A stretch of DNA of 30,422 nt from a virus, in IMG/VR virus record IMGVR_UViG_3300035181_000624, positions 1 to 30,422 of that record. One strand, 5' to 3'. The notes under the pieces are model-generated. The model did no database searches. It was not told where the DNA came from and saw nothing but the letters and a program-made list of their open reading frames with translations. Positions 121 through 12,289 of the stretch are shown one piece after another (within the stretch, counting starts at the first letter, position 1; every line of letters starts with the position of its first letter). The translations under genes were made by a program, and so were the position numbers.

Positions 121-504
121 AGATGCTAGTGTAATTCTACCATCTGCTCCCACTGTAATGTTTGCATTAGTATAAGAACCTGGAGTGACTGCTGTATTTG
201 AAATGGTCGTTGCAAAACTTCCTGTTCCACTACCGGTTACATCACCTGTTAAAGTAATTGTTTGATCACCTGTATTCGTACCACTCAAGTTCGTGCCGGC
301 GATTGTTCCTGTTGAATTGATTTGAGTAGGTGTAATCGCACCTAACCCAATAGAAAGTACACCACTTGTTGTGATGGGTGATCCTGAAACTGTAACACCT
401 TGGTTGCCTGTTGCCGCGATTGCTGTTACAGTACCGGAACCTCCACCACCTCCACCTGTTGGGAAATTAGGTGTAGCATTTAATATGCTTTGCCCATTAA
501 TCAT
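1..504 (-). CDS. Tail fibre protein, N-terminal part (gene continues across the circular join)
   Basis: This is the first 168 codons of a fibre gene. The start ATG overlaps the stop of the upstream 107-aa gene as TAATG, which suggests coupled translation. The protein opens with MINGQSILNATPNFPTG and a glycine run. Fibre-type low-complexity segments follow: SGSPITTSGVLSIGLG, GTNTGDQTITLTGDVTG and VSSFNTRTGAVTLTSSDV. The frame is still open at base 1. Base 1 equals base 30303, and the frame continues into 29805-30302 to give a 333-aa protein with no stop. These G/T/S-rich repeats are common in trimeric phage tail fibres; the fold is inferred, not shown. The neighbours (portal, Hint protein, further fibres) fit a host-attachment role. 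Confidence 0.85.
   Translation of the reverse strand, partial: MINGQSILNATPNFPTGGGGGGSGTVTAIAATGNQGVTVSGSPITTSGVLSIGLGAITPTQINSTGTIAGTNLSGTNTGDQTITLTGDVTGSGTGSFATTISNTAVTPGSYTNANITVGADGRITLASNGSTSGVSSFNTRTGAVTLTSSDVTTALGFTPGVGSVTSV
209..291. repeat. 83-bp direct repeat in the fibre gene, copy 1
   Basis: Matches 30094-30176 at 78 of 83 positions. It encodes the repeated TNTGDQTITLTGDVTG segment. On the circle the copies are 417 bases apart, a multiple of three, so recombination would shorten the fibre in frame. Confidence 0.85.
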
Positions 505-827
505 TATTGAAGCCCATAAAATGCTACTGAAATTGTTATTGCTGCTGGTGCAAAAATTGTAAATAATGTCATTTCTTCTACCAAGTATCTGGTAGTGGGA
601 TTTAATTCGTCGCCACTACCGTCTGCCACGGGAGAGCCATTGGCCACTCCACCATTAAAATTGACAAAGAAGTGACCAGTCGATGAAAATGCAACTATAT
701 TTGCGCCGACTGGAACTGATACTATTTTTACATCTGTTGGGTTGAAAGTATACACATTTACATACTTCGATGGGTTTAATTGCATCGATCTCTGTGTTTG
801 TACATCATATTGGGTAATTGGTACCAT
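504..827 (-). CDS. Small virion-associated protein, beta-rich, unknown
   Basis: A 107-aa protein starting MVPITQYDVQTQRSM. It is rich in V, T, F, N and G with alternating hydrophobic residues, so probably a small beta-sandwich. No catalytic motif or membrane segment is visible. A strong AAGGAG sits four bases before the ATG, and a GATAAATA box lies about 20 bases upstream at 847-854. Its stop overlaps the fibre start as TAATG, so it is probably made together with the fibre. It could be a fibre adaptor or capsid decoration protein. The role is inferred only from position between the Hint protein and the fibre. Confidence 0.6.
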   Translation of the reverse strand: MVPITQYDVQTQRSMQLNPSKYVNVYTFNPTDVKIVSVPVGANIVAFSSTGHFFVNFNGGVANGSPVADGSGDELNPTTRYLVEEMTLFTIFAPAAITISVAFYGLQ

Positions 828-854: not shown

Positions 855-2685
855 TATGTTTTGCTTTGATCATCTTTTCGAAGTAGTCCCGGCCCAATGC
901 CCGAACTATAGCTGCTGGAATAACAAATTCACCATTTGATAATTTTGCTGGAATAGAATCACTTGTTCCTGTGCCGGGGCCACTTATATACCCACCTTTA
1001 GCATCTTCCTCTACGCGACCTATGTCGAAAGGAGTTCCACCGCCACCGCCACCGCCACCACCTTCTCCCTCGGCCATTTTCATGTTGTGGTGCAAAATAA
1101 ATCCATCGGCAGTTTCACCGGCCCAAAAACATTTATTACCTACTGTAATGTGCTGAACTTGAATAAATCCGATACTTATGACTTCTACAATCTTAGACCA
1201 TCTATTTCGTATTTTACCGTTAGTAGTTTTGCGTGTTGCTACTTTTTCACCCATAAGTTCGTGGGGATTTTTTAATCCATTCTTTGTTGGAATAGGAGCA
1301 CTTCCGGAACAAATAAGTGATACTCCATTCTTTGTTACAATTCTAAAGCCTGGTTGTGTTTTCTCTTGTGAATAACTTACAATACCTGTTCCTGGTTTAA
1401 GTGTTCTTTCATCCGCAAGTATCATAGAATTACCTACTTCTATACTGCCTGCTAAATTACCTTCTGGTAAGAAAGATGCTATATGAACACACCCTGCACC
1501 ACCACCACCTGTGTCCCATTCTGATGGTGCTTCTGCTGTGGAAGGATCACCATTGTCATTACCGCCATTATAACCATCACTACGACCACCTTGACCATCT
1601 CCACCCTGGTCAGTTGTTGTTGGAAAGTAACTATTAGGTTGAGATGGGCCGTTAAAGTTTGCTTCACCTTCTTGTGGAATATTAGTATTTGCTCTGTTCC
1701 ATGTCTTATATGCATTGTTACCAGCGTTGATAAGATTATACGGATTAGGATTGCCTAAAGCGGATAGAATACTTAATCCAGTTCTTGTATAATCCCACAC
1801 AGAATTTGTATCTGTAGTGTATGGATTTAGGTTACCTGCTGTTACACTTCCATTATTGTCGTTGCCGGGTGTTGGAACAAAATTAGTTGAAGTGTCTCCA
1901 TAACTACCGTTACCGAATGATCCGTTGTTATCACCATTTCCGGAGTTGCCAGAACCATTACCATTACCTGTATTACCTGTATTACCTGTATTTCCACCAT
2001 AGGTTCCACTAGGGATCCATGTACTTCCAGTGTTTCCGTTACCATTTCCCGGGCCAGTATAAACACCACCTCCTCCACCTCCAGTAGTTACATGCCCGGG
2101 GCCTACTACACCTGTATTAGGGTTAGTCGTACCAGTTCCTTGACCTGGAGTCAATGCTGAAAACGGTTGCTGTGTTGATAACCACGATTGATACTGTGGA
2201 GCCAATGTATTGAAACCCGGGATATTCTGAGGTGTCGGTGTAATATTAAATAATCCTTTAGGAGGATTATAAACACCCGGTTGACCTTGTGGAGTGTTTT
2301 GAAAACCGTTGTTTTGTGCGTTCTGGAACGCCGGTGTATTATAACCCGAATTACCTCCGATGTTCTGTCCAATCGGTTGTGTATTATTAGGATTCATCAT
2401 CCCACCAATGTTTGGATTACTCCCAGGATTTTGTGCGTAGTTTTGATTATTACCACCCGAAGTTCCGCTATACATTATAGGATTACCGTTCTGGTCTACA
2501 TATGTTTCTCTAGGAACTTGTGGGTCGCCAGTTTGGTGATACGGTGCTGGGCGCTGTATCTGTTCTTGTGACAGGATCGGCGCATCCGATCCTGTATTAG
2601 ATACTTGAACTGTATCCGGATTTATTACACCGGTTGGTTGTGGAACACCATAATTCAGCCCCAAAATTGTTTTTAACATATCCAT
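850..2685 (-). CDS. Gly/Asn-rich virion protein with a Hint (intein-like) domain
   Basis: A 611-aa protein just after the portal (TAATATG junction). Residues 1-398 are low complexity: Pro/Gln/Asn early, then a Gly/Asn/Thr stretch at about 200-262 encoded by 9-bp tandem repeats. Residues 399-534 look like a Hint domain: Cys399 opens it after GGGGAG, LICSGSAPIPT (457-467) matches the block-B region, VQHITVGNKCFWAG follows, and it closes with LHHN (531-534). No homing endonuclease is inserted. Residue 535 is Met, not the Cys/Ser/Thr needed for normal splicing, so cleavage or an inactive relic is more likely. After a nine-glycine run the C-terminus reads GPGTGTSDSIPAKLSNGEFV, a segment I recall from many phage structural proteins. 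It is probably a large virion component; its function is unknown. Confidence 0.7.
   Translation of the reverse strand: MDMLKTILGLNYGVPQPTGVINPDTVQVSNTGSDAPILSQEQIQRPAPYHQTGDPQVPRETYVDQNGNPIMYSGTSGGNNQNYAQNPGSNPNIGGMMNPNNTQPIGQNIGGNSGYNTPAFQNAQNNGFQNTPQGQPGVYNPPKGLFNITPTPQNIPGFNTLAPQYQSWLSTQQPFSALTPGQGTGTTNPNTGVVGPGHVTTGGGGGGVYTGPGNGNGNTGSTWIPSGTYGGNTGNTGNTGNGNGSGNSGNGDNNGSFGNGSYGDTSTNFVPTPGNDNNGSVTAGNLNPYTTDTNSVWDYTRTGLSILSALGNPNPYNLINAGNNAYKTWNRANTNIPQEGEANFNGPSQPNSYFPTTTDQGGDGQGGRSDGYNGGNDNGDPSTAEAPSEWDTGGGGAGCVHIASFLPEGNLAGSIEVGNSMILADERTLKPGTGIVSYSQEKTQPGFRIVTKNGVSLICSGSAPIPTKNGLKNPHELMGEKVATRKTTNGKIRNRWSKIVEVISIGFIQVQHITVGNKCFWAGETADGFILHHNMKMAEGEGGGGGGGGGTPFDIGRVEEDAKGGYISGPGTGTSDSIPAKLSNGEFVIPAAIVRALGRDYFEKMIKAKHR
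1966..1992. repeat. 9-bp tandem repeat within the Hint-protein gene
   Basis: ACCTGTATT is repeated three times in a row on the plus strand and encodes the GNTGNTGNTG stretch on the minus strand. A multiple of three preserves frame, so copy number could vary by slippage without breaking the protein. Confidence 0.85.
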
Positions 2686-2686
2686 A

Positions 2687-4957
2687 TTATTGTCCTTGTG
2701 ATCCGTTAGTTATATCACCCAAATGACCTTCTTTAGCTGCTTGTAATGTCACATCAATCATGTGTTGTTGATGGTTCATTTTTGTTTTTACCATATCTGC
2801 ATCTATCTTATCGCGAGTATCATTCATTGCGTGATAGGCTCTAGCACTAGCAACTCTAATATCACCTTCAGTCTTAGCATGAATAACAGCAATTTGGCCT
2901 TCGTGGTCAATTTGTTTTGTCACTTTTTCAATAGTTAACTGATGATTCTGCGCTTGTAATGCTTGTAACTCTTGAGTCATTTGTTGAATTAGTTGTGACT
3001 GTTGTTGAATTGCTGCTTGTGCTTGTGGTGGTAAAGGGTCTGTTTCATTCTTATCGTCAATCAATCCTGGAGACTTCATCATCAATACTTTCTTCAACCT
3101 ATCTTGAATAACTCCTGCCTTGTCGAAATCCATTTCACCCACTAAAATATCTTGGATGAAAGGCATCACTGCTGGATCACTTCCAACTAATTTGATAATT
3201 TGTTCTAATGCTTGTGATTTACGAGTAGCATAGGCTGGGCCCGCCGAAACTGCAACACCATATTCACCCATATCCATTTGATGAATCTTTTGTTGGCCAT
3301 TCTCGACAAATATTTGGTTGATCTTAACAATTTCTTCCTCTGAATCTGCACCTATAATTCGTACTGTTCGTGGTGTATCATATATTTTAGGGATCAATTT
3401 GATGCATAGATATCCTAATCGTTGAATTGCTCGCTGTAAAGCATCACTAAAGTGGTAGTTACTATTTTGCCCTTGTTGTGCAAGTGTCTTAATAGCTATC
3501 CCACTCTGATCATTCGCGGTTGCACCTAAACCTGCATCATAAACACCTATCGTTGCTTTAAGATCATTCTCAAATTTTACAGCAGCCTGTAACAAATCAC
3601 CAATCTGTCCTGTTTGATCCGCTCTTGTTGGTGGTGCTAACGGTCTTTGTGGATTGTCTGGATCGACAGAATTATATGGGAGCATAGACCAGTTCTCTGT
3701 ATTGGCAGTCTTCCATTGATTCTCGTAGCCCTTAACACTCTTGATGTCAACTATCCACGGAGATTTATTTGATGAACCTATTCGTCGTACAGTTGAACTT
3801 GCCATATAATTAAGCATCTTTTGGCTATCTTTCGCATTATGGATTAATCCACGAATATCTCTTTCACCGTCTACTATCAAAGTAGGGCCATAGATAGAAA
3901 CGAAAGGGAAATCTTCCGAAGCCCAATCACCCATATCTAAGATTTCTACTCCATTGAATATCGCCCATTTAATTTTTGTGGAGATAATATTTCTTTTTCT
4001 CAGTACTGCCTTCTGTGCTAGAGTGCCGTCAGGTAATGTCTTACTAGGAAATGGTGACCTAGCATCATCACTTTCGGCTTCACTTTCGTTAGGATCATAC
4101 CATCCCATGTTGTCTACTGTCGTACCATCTTCTAACAGATACTCTATAGATTCTATTTCTTCCTTGTACCAATATTTAACTACACGAATACCGTCACCAC
4201 CTACCCACTTAGAAACGGTTGCGCCCGTCACTTCTAAATCAATAGAAGCCATTTCACTATTTGGAAATAATCTTTTATATGCATCTACTGAGTAATCATC
4301 GAACTCGAACCAGCAACTTGCATCGCTACTATCGGGTTCTGTTGCATCGCCATCGGGTATAATCTTGAAAGGATCATGTGGGCTTGTAATTAGGATTTCT
4401 TGGTTGTGCCCTATACCATTTACATATTTTGTTTCTAATTTGAGAAATCCAAAGCCGGGAACCATTGCACCACTTTCTCCAGCAGCATGGATATATGCAG
4501 TCTGTGCATAAGATTTTCTTTCTATGTCTCGAATTAGTCCAGCAAAAATCTGTGCAGTTTCATCACTACCAACTTCGTCTGTGGGATATACATTGATAGA
4601 AATTTGTTGTTGGCGAAGTTCATTTTCGACCTGTTTAACAAACTGTGGTAACCTATTAACAGTAATATTAGGCTCTTTACGAATACTGCCAACTCGTTGT
4701 AGGTCTGTCGTCCACTGGTCTCCACGGTAGAAACGCAAGTCGTCCATCGCATTCTTTCGAATCTTGCTCCACGAGTCCATAGATTTATTGAAACGCTCTT
4801 TACCTGTTTCTAGAATATCTTCTAGTTGGTCCTTAAGAGTATCTTCATCTGGCTCTGTAGTTTTACTACTTGTTTTGATTGATTGGGAGTTTGACATCTT
4901 CATATCACTAGATTTTCTAGCCTTAACAGAAGATGTTGGGAATTTTGTGGGTTTCAT
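2687..4957 (-). CDS. Portal protein, P22 family
   Basis: A 756-aa portal (P22 gp1 is 725 aa). Portals form the dodecameric ring at the capsid vertex through which DNA is packed and ejected. Family-like features include FYRGDQW at 76-82, NRLPQFVKQVENELRQQ at 101-117, and a glutamine-rich coiled coil at about 646-690. A long helical tail follows, like the C-terminal barrel of P22-type portals. The first 40 residues are Ser/Lys-rich and probably disordered. The gene lies 75 bases after the large terminase and has only a weak AGG ribosome site. It ends one base before the Hint-protein gene. Assignment is from sequence pattern and gene order. Confidence 0.9.
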   Translation of the reverse strand: MKPTKFPTSSVKARKSSDMKMSNSQSIKTSSKTTEPDEDTLKDQLEDILETGKERFNKSMDSWSKIRKNAMDDLRFYRGDQWTTDLQRVGSIRKEPNITVNRLPQFVKQVENELRQQQISINVYPTDEVGSDETAQIFAGLIRDIERKSYAQTAYIHAAGESGAMVPGFGFLKLETKYVNGIGHNQEILITSPHDPFKIIPDGDATEPDSSDASCWFEFDDYSVDAYKRLFPNSEMASIDLEVTGATVSKWVGGDGIRVVKYWYKEEIESIEYLLEDGTTVDNMGWYDPNESEAESDDARSPFPSKTLPDGTLAQKAVLRKRNIISTKIKWAIFNGVEILDMGDWASEDFPFVSIYGPTLIVDGERDIRGLIHNAKDSQKMLNYMASSTVRRIGSSNKSPWIVDIKSVKGYENQWKTANTENWSMLPYNSVDPDNPQRPLAPPTRADQTGQIGDLLQAAVKFENDLKATIGVYDAGLGATANDQSGIAIKTLAQQGQNSNYHFSDALQRAIQRLGYLCIKLIPKIYDTPRTVRIIGADSEEEIVKINQIFVENGQQKIHQMDMGEYGVAVSAGPAYATRKSQALEQIIKLVGSDPAVMPFIQDILVGEMDFDKAGVIQDRLKKVLMMKSPGLIDDKNETDPLPPQAQAAIQQQSQLIQQMTQELQALQAQNHQLTIEKVTKQIDHEGQIAVIHAKTEGDIRVASARAYHAMNDTRDKIDADMVKTKMNHQQHMIDVTLQAAKEGHLGDITNGSQGQ

Positions 4958-7607: not shown

Positions 7608-7971
7608 TTTATTTATTAGTTTTCTGTTTTGAAACTGTTGTTGAATATACTTTTGTATTAAGACTTCTAGTGTGTACTATAGCAAAACAAAGCAAATCAG
7701 TTAAGTTGTGGTAGAGGAGACTATCTCTTTCAATTAGTTACTATCTCGAGAAAGAGATAGTCTCCCAAAAACCGGTGTTTTTGATATCAGCAAGTGCTAA
7801 GGTATACTATGTTACTAACTATACTATCTTTTTTAATTAAACATAATATAGTAATATAGTAATATATAGTGCTATACAACCTACCTACTAAGTTAGTCAC
7901 TTAGTAACTTATCCCCTTAACACTACCTACACGCCCACTTTTCAGGTAGACTATACTTTTTAATTTCTGTC
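7608..7971. other. Non-coding AT-rich region with strong inverted repeats
   Basis: This is the largest gap in the map. It holds a perfect 16-bp inverted repeat (7716-7731 with 7750-7765), an adjacent 7-bp hairpin with CGGT loop (7766-7783), an 8-bp hairpin (7886-7893 with 7899-7906) and AT-rich repeats built on ATAGTA / TACTAT (7803-7880). Apart from a possible 18-aa frame at its right edge I see no gene. It lies between the replication module and the packaging genes, a plausible place for a replication origin, a pac site or a structured RNA. No function is shown. Confidence 0.6.
7716..7765. repeat. Perfect 16-bp inverted repeat, 18-nt spacer
   Basis: The left arm GGAGACTATCTCTTTC at 7716-7731 is exactly complementary to 7750-7765. 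The spacer contains a second CTATCTC (7741-7747) that can pair with GAGATAG in the right arm, so two alternative stems are possible. There is no T-run on either side, so it is not a standard terminator. Confidence 0.9.
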
Positions 7972-7979
7972 TTAGACAT
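7923..7979 (-). CDS. Possible 18-aa peptide overlapping the end of the helicase gene
   Basis: The frame reads MSKTEIKKYSLPEKWACR and stops. Its ATG overlaps the helicase stop and is preceded by a very strong GAGGGG site, better than those of many real genes here. It could be a short peptide, or the surviving N-terminus of a gene lost into the non-coding region that follows. Other frames close within about 15 codons, so a single frameshift does not restore a long protein. Confidence 0.3.
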   Translation of the reverse strand: MSKTEIKKYSLPEKWACR

Positions 7980-9375
7980 ATTTCCCCCTCTTTTTCACCG
8001 CATTTTCTATGTCTTTTTTGATGTCCTCTATGCCCTTGCAGTAGTCTATAAGCCCACCAGACTCAACTTTTTCTACCTCATTATACTTGAAATTTACCCC
8101 AAACCGCTTTAATTTCTTGTTATATAAGTATCCTTTTGCCTTCAACCATGCTGCTGCTTCATTAGCATTTGCCTTATTTGGGTTCAATATTCCCGCTCTA
8201 TTACAAATAATAGTAGCACCCAACCACTCAACATCACTATCTTTATCATTACACAACTCAGATTCTACTAAAACATATTCTAATTTTTGTATTATTGGAC
8301 TAATTGTCATAATATCTTCCTGTTCTTTAGTTAAATCAACTCGTTCAGATGGGCTTAAATACCAACCCCACTCCCCACTCTTCACACTATCTGCCCTTGT
8401 ATCCATTAAAGGAAGCAATCTATTATACATATCTAACATTTCAGCCCAAAATTGCTCAAGATCTATTTTAACATTCGGAAAACTAACATCTGTTAATGGC
8501 CAGTATCTTCTATTTTCATCATCATCTAAGATAGCAAATTTATTACTTGTTCCAAAAAATACTGTTCGACGAGAATACACATTAGCTTTTTTAGCATACG
8601 GTGGTCGCAGTGTATCTTTCTTTTCAGTTAAAAAAGCCTTTAGTGCTTCTTGGTCTGCCTTTCTAAAAGTAGTTCCCATTTCACCTAACTCACTCACTAC
8701 TCCACCCAATGCTTTTAATAGAGTATCTTTATTATGTGGGTCTATAGAGCAACCTGTAATCACCCAACTATGATACTTTCGTGGAAATAAATTTTCTGCA
8801 AATGAAGTTTTCGCCGCACCTTGCCCACCCAATAAAGTTAAAACTCCTTCAGCACCAAAACGATAATCTTCTCTAAATGCGGCAGCGACAATACTCAAAG
8901 CCCACTTTCGCATATATAATTCTTTTTTATCTGTATCTGTAGTAGTTTCTATCAAATTATAATAATTCTGTAATCGACTTATTCCATCCCATTTTATTTT
9001 AGTAATCCACTCACAAAAAGGATGATATGTATTCTCATTCGCGACCATATCAATTTGCTGGGCAACTCGCGAATATGGTAATGAGGCTTGGATTGCTAAA
9101 TCCTCCAAATAAGTTAATTGTGCATTCGCAGCAGTATCACAGTGAAACTTTTTCTGAGGGATTATTATTTCTTGTTCTTTTGACATTTCGTTATATCGAA
9201 TACTAATGTTATAATAATCCAACATTGCTTTAAAATTCTCATTTGTACCTAACGGAACTCCTTTATCATTTTTATCCGGGAAATCAATAAAATATTTAAT
9301 TTCTCTATTAACACTATCGATTTGTGCTTGTAATTTCGCTATCTCTTGTTGTTTTGTCAATTTAATCTTGGTCAT
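7972..9375 (-). CDS. VirE/VapE-type P-loop helicase-like ATPase
   Basis: A 467-aa protein of the virulence-associated E family, which phages use as a replicative helicase beside an AEP primase. Walker A is GGQGAAKT at 183-190. SELGE near 228-232 takes the Walker B position. FFGTSN at 273-278 is the sensor-like motif, followed by DENRRYWPL with the probable arginine finger. An N-terminal helical segment contains LTKQQEIAKLQAQID. The gene overlaps the primase by 14 bases, with AAAGGA seven bases before its ATG. The pair probably unwinds and primes phage DNA while a host polymerase extends it, since no polymerase gene is seen. Confidence 0.85.
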   Translation of the reverse strand: MTKIKLTKQQEIAKLQAQIDSVNREIKYFIDFPDKNDKGVPLGTNENFKAMLDYYNISIRYNEMSKEQEIIIPQKKFHCDTAANAQLTYLEDLAIQASLPYSRVAQQIDMVANENTYHPFCEWITKIKWDGISRLQNYYNLIETTTDTDKKELYMRKWALSIVAAAFREDYRFGAEGVLTLLGGQGAAKTSFAENLFPRKYHSWVITGCSIDPHNKDTLLKALGGVVSELGEMGTTFRKADQEALKAFLTEKKDTLRPPYAKKANVYSRRTVFFGTSNKFAILDDDENRRYWPLTDVSFPNVKIDLEQFWAEMLDMYNRLLPLMDTRADSVKSGEWGWYLSPSERVDLTKEQEDIMTISPIIQKLEYVLVESELCNDKDSDVEWLGATIICNRAGILNPNKANANEAAAWLKAKGYLYNKKLKRFGVNFKYNEVEKVESGGLIDYCKGIEDIKKDIENAVKKRGKYV

Positions 9376-11755: not shown

Positions 11756-12289
11756 TCACTTTATTCTATTTCTTCTTGCTAACATTTCTTTCATTGCCGG
11801 TGATATAAATTTCTCATGCGGTTTCTCGAAACTGTATAACACTCGCTCACTAAGTGGGTCGTTATCGACTTTAATTCGCATCTTTTCGGCTAATTTAGCA
11901 GCCTCCTTGAGTTTCGTAGTAGTAAGTATAGCTTTCGTTCTAGCCTCGATAAATTCGCCAGGATTTGCATAATTTCTTCCATTCCACGCTTCATCATCAC
12001 CCGCTCGCATATTTTGTAAAGGGTGACCTTCCATGCGAAATTTATTGATCCAGTAATCTTCGAAGTTCTCTGTGCCTTCACCACACTCTTGCACGATTTG
12101 CATAGACCACTCACGGCAGAGTTTATCTAAGGCGGATGCATAATAATATTTGTCCTCATCGAAAGGTTTATAGTGTTTCGCACCTAATCTATGTTCTAGC
12201 ATTCGTCTGTGAGGATCGATCGTGCGCCCAACATAAAAAATTGTATTATCAGCAACTTCCTTTAAACAGTAAATAAAATCACTCATCAT
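11756..12289 (-). CDS. GIY-YIG family endonuclease
   Basis: A 177-aa protein. The GIY-YIG core is FIYCLKE (5-11) and IFYVGRTIDPHRRMLEHR (17-34), with the conserved Arg22. EDYWINKF at 77-84 supplies the catalytic Glu77, and GHPLQNMRAGDD follows as usual. The last 70 residues are helical and charged and show no clear DNA-binding module. Free-standing GIY-YIG genes in phages are often homing endonucleases, but others act in DNA breakdown or repair. The gene overlaps the 228-aa gene by 11 bases and reads toward the leader terminator at 11578-11633. Confidence 0.85.
   Translation of the reverse strand: MMSDFIYCLKEVADNTIFYVGRTIDPHRRMLEHRLGAKHYKPFDEDKYYYASALDKLCREWSMQIVQECGEGTENFEDYWINKFRMEGHPLQNMRAGDDEAWNGRNYANPGEFIEARTKAILTTTKLKEAAKLAEKMRIKVDNDPLSERVLYSFEKPHEKFISPAMKEMLARRNRIK

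Follow-up and report, generated by a model that had tools for sequence, protein, structure and literature searches.

The window, itself a virus record of 30,422 bases, is a fragment of a P22-like phage with genes for terminase, scaffold, coat, connector, and DNA ejection. Between the portal ORF and a 107-aa ORF lies the gene for a 611-aa protein that carries a Hint domain (Table 1), and the position of this gene suggests that its product is a virion protein. The base composition of the gene is unremarkable, with a GC3 of 0.26 compared with 0.24-0.30 in its neighbors. In the nearest relative phage (L083, 6253-6583), which has a portal 71% identical to that of the window, the portal is followed directly by a homologue of the 107-aa ORF. 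That phage has no 611-aa gene, and the Hint profile finds no match in its record, which may be a fragment. Because the carrier gene is absent from the nearest relative, it is accessory. Elsewhere in the window, positions 11756-12289 (minus strand) give a weak PHROGs match to the GIY-YIG homing endonuclease family (E=0.0067).

Table 1. The Hint-domain protein of the window, its parts, and the flanking genes.
Feature	Position	Strand	Basis or remark
107-aa ORF	504-827		On the other flank of the 611-aa carrier ORF from the portal
611-aa carrier ORF	850-2685	minus	Gly/Asn/Thr-rich N-terminal ~390 aa, Hint domain, poly-Gly, C-terminal module
P22-like portal ORF	2687-4957		Pfam P22_portal, E=1.2e-139; the 611-aa ORF begins 1 bp downstream
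Gly-rich linker GGGGAG, aa 393-398	1492-1509	minus	Abuts Cys1; Gly398-Cys399 would be the scissile bond if N-cleavage occurs
Hint domain Cys399-Asn534, 136 aa	1084-1491	minus	AlphaFold2 model and Foldseek PDB matches
Cys399, block A Cys1	1489-1491	minus	Kept in 55/55 family members
Block B equivalent Ser460-Gly-Ser-Ala463	1297-1308	minus	Ala replaces the TxxH histidine; profile alignment to inteins
Block F equivalent VQHITVGNKCFWAGE, aa 510-524	1114-1158	minus	FWAGE conserved, intein Asp/His positions not
Block G His533-Asn534	1084-1089 (Asn534, 1084-1086)	minus	Kept in all complete members
Met535, +1 residue, no nucleophile	1081-1083	minus
Poly-Gly linker after the domain, nine glycines, aa 542-550	1036-1062	minus
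C-terminal GPGTGTSDSIPAKLSNGEFV module, aa 560-605, tape-measure-type	871-1008	minus	PHROGs tape-measure profiles, best E=2.7e-10

A preliminary description, made from the letters of the window, had proposed a Hint domain from Cys399 to Asn534, and structure prediction bears this out. The AlphaFold2 model of the domain, computed with an alignment of 31 relatives as input, has a pLDDT of 93.5 and a pTM of 0.89, and every one of the 50 PDB matches listed by Foldseek is an intein, a BIL domain, or Hedgehog. The best match is the NpuDnaB intein (E=1.8e-7, TM 0.75), and further matches include Ssp DnaB, Tetrahymena BUBL BIL2, the Clostridium thermocellum BIL domain 2lwy, gp41-1, and Hedgehog 1at0. 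A T4-like member that is 36% identical to the window domain was modeled on its own, and its top 50 PDB matches likewise comprise only inteins, BIL domains, and Hedgehog; the C-terminal tail in this model is predicted to be poorly ordered (pLDDT ~62). Profile and fold searches were needed for these assignments because single-sequence searches of the PDB and of plasmids gave no match to the domain. No Pfam or PHROGs model matches it, with no Hint family at E<=1 in Pfam, and NCBIfam gives no match to the whole 611-aa protein. When the family profile is compared with PDB sequences, inteins come out on top (Pho CDC21, E=0.0098; gp41-1, E=0.041). The Hint assignment is far beyond chance, and the fold has all the certainty that a prediction can give.

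The Hint landmarks noted in the preliminary description are incomplete. Cys1 and the terminal His-Asn pair are present; at block B, Ser460-Gly-Ser-Ala463 stands in place of TxxH and the histidine is missing. Its other structural observations stand. The 136-aa domain leaves no room for an endonuclease, Met535 supplies no +1 nucleophile, and Gly-rich linkers are found on both sides, GGGGAG before the domain and nine glycines after it. In the window protein, the domain looks like a module inserted between these two linkers.

The window domain belongs to a previously unnamed, mainly phage family of Hint domains, of which we found no description in the open-access literature. Alignment-based scans of IMG/VR, which overlap, returned 60 loci and then 15, and tblastn located the domain in Xanthomonas, Erwinia, and Stenotrophomonas phages. 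With near-identical copies removed and the window included, the family set comprises 55 sequences. The usual architecture is a poly-Gly or Gly-rich stretch, Cys-Val, ~135-145 residues, [I/L]-L-H-H-N, another 5-26 residues, and the stop codon, such that in phage relatives the domain nearly always sits at the extreme C terminus of the protein. One member (L021), for example, ends in ILHHNM with a tail of 10 aa. A lambda-J-like central tail tip protein of 1,428 aa (L101, 2146-6432) closes with GGGGAC, the Hint domain, HHN, and again a 10-aa tail. This end of a lambda-J-like tail tip is the normal seat of host specificity. Other carriers are DLP_6 gp267, hypothetical tail genes of jumbo phages, and T4-like tail proteins of ~1,500 aa of the DUF4815/VlrC type; VlrC is described as integral to two-layered baseplates (PMC7029224). 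Among the phages with the domain that have been cultured are Stenotrophomonas phage DLP_6 and the Xanthomonas phages XacN1, LucasX, and PhiXhv-12. One 350-kb jumbo-phage contig (IMGVR 3300048854_000081) has three copies (L104, L107, and L109), each ending a different ORF, and two of these ORFs are neighbors. Outside phages, the domain turned up in 6 of the 394 Oxalobacteraceae genomes searched, and 368 other genomes of the same class, Duganella's own aside, gave no copy. The Oxalobacteraceae relatives lie within a Peptidase_M91-like protein and an RHS-repeat protein (L077 and L079), among others. Three of the Oxalobacteraceae copies have longer C-terminal extensions of 58-72 aa, and the Duganella aceris copy (L006, ~7960-8320) is split by a frameshift, being either a pseudogene or an assembly error.

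Across the family, pairwise identities fall as low as 20-35%, and both ends of the domain are fixed: Cys1 is present in all 55 members, and the terminal His-Asn is present in all complete ones. The codons for these residues are mixed (TGC 29 and TGT 26 for Cys1; AAT 28 and AAC 26 for Asn), indicating that it is the residues and not the DNA that are held, a pattern expected of purifying selection on the residue. Nor is this conservation circular, because Cys1 is part of no search pattern used in the productive scans of viral contigs, and 35 of the non-redundant members fit neither of the counted patterns that contain His-Asn. The interior of the active site is different. In a profile alignment whose block B register is set by Pho CDC21 (TPTHP), gp41-1 (SEEHL), and NrdJ-1 (TPDHP), the Thr position of block B is Ser in every member, and the His position is Ala in 50 and Thr in 5, never His. 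The Asp and His positions of block F are variable. The residue at -1 is Gly in 42 of the 55. At +1, the counts are Val 17, Ile 10, Leu 9, Met 9, Ala 7, Asn 1-2, Ser 1, and Thr 1; Cys never occurs, which extends to the whole family the absence of a +1 nucleophile first noted for the window protein. Because 51-52 of the 55 members have Val, Ile, Leu, Met, or Ala at this position, almost none has a nucleophile for transesterification.

Among the known systems nearest to the family are the A-type BIL domains (Amitai 2003; Dassa 2004, reviewed in PMC7765530). Both have the Hint fold, Cys1, a terminal His-Asn, and a +1 position without a conserved nucleophile; in both, cleavage would be expected instead of ligation, and the carriers are variable proteins that are host-facing or secreted. 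A terminal His-Asn followed by a non-nucleophilic +1 residue is one mark of an A-type BIL domain, and the family has both. It differs from those domains in that all of its members lack the block B His, in its position at the extreme C termini of phage tail proteins after poly-Gly, and in having no detectable match to the Pfam or NCBIfam Hint models. For the Hint superfamily as a whole, the fold is present in the predicted models and Cys1 in 55 of 55 sequences, and the TxxH histidine is missing from all 55; this histidine does not strictly define the superfamily, and rare exceptions to it have been described (PMC7765530). Class 1 mini-inteins (NpuDnaB, Ssp DnaB, and gp41-1) are the best structural matches and among the best sequence-profile matches. 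Class 1 inteins, however, combine a +1 nucleophile with a terminal Asn or Gln, and the window protein has the Asn followed by Met. Nearly all members of the family lack a +1 Cys, Ser, or Thr, and all lack the block B His; the family does not conserve the block F Asp and His, and it caps unrelated proteins instead of interrupting an essential protein at a conserved site. Class 3 inteins, which have a WCT motif and no Cys1, are set apart by the Cys1 of all 55 members. Hedgehog Hog also has a C-terminal Hint domain that works on an upstream Gly-Cys bond, and 1at0 is a fold match, but the family has no sterol-recognition region (only 5-26 residues follow in phage relatives), and it keeps the terminal His-Asn and has lost the block B His. 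In common with the processing domains of polymorphic toxins (PT-HINT), some Oxalobacteraceae relatives sit in RHS or M91-peptidase proteins, whereas no PT-HINT Pfam profile matches and no toxin domain follows in the phage members.

With somewhat better than even confidence, we infer that the Hint cap cuts its own polypeptide once, in a single turnover and with no splicing. Our best guess for the site is the Gly-Cys junction, the Asn, or both. We favor cleavage because Cys1 and the His-Asn pair have been kept while identities fell to 20-35%, and because the domain is a C-terminal cap with tails of 5-26 aa and a Gly before Cys1 in most members. The preliminary description had likewise suggested that the domain may cleave instead of splicing, and the non-nucleophilic +1 residue seen family-wide makes this the better reading. 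In the window protein, Cys399 would attack the Gly398-Cys399 bond in an N-S acyl shift, the resulting thioester would be hydrolyzed or captured by another nucleophile, and Asn534, aided by His533, would cyclize to cut the chain before Met535. Three products would result: a Gly-rich protein of 398 aa, the Hint domain on its own, and a 77-aa peptide that includes the tape-measure-type module. In the relatives, the Hint cap and short tail would be trimmed from a tail protein, possibly once it has folded or been assembled. We found no sign of cleavage by mass spectrometry or on gels; ORF231 goes unmentioned in the text of the XacN1 virion-proteome paper (PMC5852040).

What argues against cleavage is the active site itself, with the block B His absent throughout and the block F Asp and His not kept. 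The block B His is the most conserved residue of inteins and is essential in many of them (PMC6333167, PMC7765530), so N-cleavage without it would require compensation. Some inteins do manage in this way (PMC7765530, PMC7664689). Tko CDC21-1 and the M86 variant H73A/G-1F (PDB 6fre) show that an N-S acyl shift is possible without the block B His (PMC7765530, PMC6333167), with a Lys having a role in Tko; in M86 the reported rescue depends on a bulky side chain at -1 (PMC6333167). Because the -1 residue in the family is mostly Gly, its compensation would have to be of another kind than that of M86.

The conserved Cys and His-Asn could instead have a structural role, and the strongest competitor to cleavage, although clearly the less probable reading, is that the fold is catalytically dead. 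It would then be a compact knob or cap recruited to the C terminus and displayed on a poly-Gly linker, aiding folding or trimerization or forming a receptor-binding tip. The loss of the block B His and of block F conservation is consistent with such a role, as is the location of the domain at the tip of proteins that face the host, among them the lambda-J-like protein and the DUF4815 tail proteins; poly-Gly followed by a terminal domain is a common layout of phage adhesins. A dead knob, however, would not need Cys1 and His-Asn to be fixed at its two ends while the rest drifts, and tip domains normally diversify fast.

A thioester at the Gly-Cys junction might also react with an amine or hydroxyl group on the host surface or on a second protein of the virion, in a transacylation like that of Hedgehog or BUBL, linking the tail protein covalently through its poly-Gly C terminus. 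The conserved Gly-Cys junction, Cys1, and the C-terminal position would suit this chemistry, as would the fold match to Tetrahymena BUBL BIL2 and Hedgehog, the aliphatic +1 residue that disfavors splicing, and the fact that a single genome can carry several capped tail proteins. On the other hand, we see no acceptor or recognition region, and the conserved Asn would be superfluous for thioester chemistry. We regard such attachment as improbable. We are equally doubtful of its fullest form, in which the active site of a phage-centered Hint clade would have been rebuilt without the block B His and the cap, upon assembly or contact with the host, would form a Gly-Cys thioester and pass the poly-Gly ends of several different tail proteins to a virion or host-surface acceptor. 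To our knowledge, a covalent attachment step of that kind is known in no phage.

It is very unlikely that the domain is a decaying intein remnant with no present function. The lost block B and F residues, the frameshifted Duganella copy, and the fact that the nearest phage relative does not have the gene would fit decay, but the frames are open, Cys1 and His-Asn are invariant in 55 diverse members, and multiple copies are retained in one genome. Least probable, to the point that we rejected it, is a true intein that splices its carrier: the fold and the block A and G residues agree with this, but the +1 residue is not Cys, Ser, or Thr in nearly all members, the domain is C-terminal with almost no partner beyond it (mostly a "C-extein" of only 5-26 aa), and there is neither a conserved host site nor an endonuclease. 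Homing of an intein into the portal-adjacent gene was likewise rejected, as we found no allele of the carrier that is free of the intein; the sole close relative phage does not have the gene.

Phage inteins are usually viewed as parasites of terminases and replication proteins. The family considered here occurs instead on host-facing tail proteins, in several phage lineages and sometimes in multiple copies, with its two terminal catalytic residues fixed and the block B histidine, supposedly essential, missing. Should the domain be active, it would provide a natural test of Hint function without that histidine, and it would imply that a self-processing or attachment step of phage tails has been overlooked.

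The window protein is the sole phage member with a long region past the Hint domain, 77 aa that include a tape-measure-type GPGTGTSDSIPA module. The preliminary description had proposed that cleavage frees this part of the protein, which it called the GTGTSDSIP module. As a general role this does not survive, because nearly all phage relatives end 5-26 residues past the Asn and have no such module; we therefore rejected liberation of the module as the main function of the domain. The proposal is weakened further by gp81 of the Pelagibacter podovirus HTVC104P, which has the same module (63% identical over 43 aa) without a Hint domain. The gp81 gene directly follows the portal gene, the same place as the carrier gene in the window. 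More broadly, a module of ~45 aa with the pattern GPGTGTSDSIPA..LS.GEFV is common to many tape-measure proteins and HTVC104P gp81, an unnamed mobile peptide module of phages.

A subclade of the family (L070, L071, L072, L074, and L091) starts with Cys-Cys-Val and has a Cys-rich tail of 22-26 aa past the Asn, for example IKCCYCGDNPNSVWTPPNCCID. These features suggest a disulphide or a metal site.
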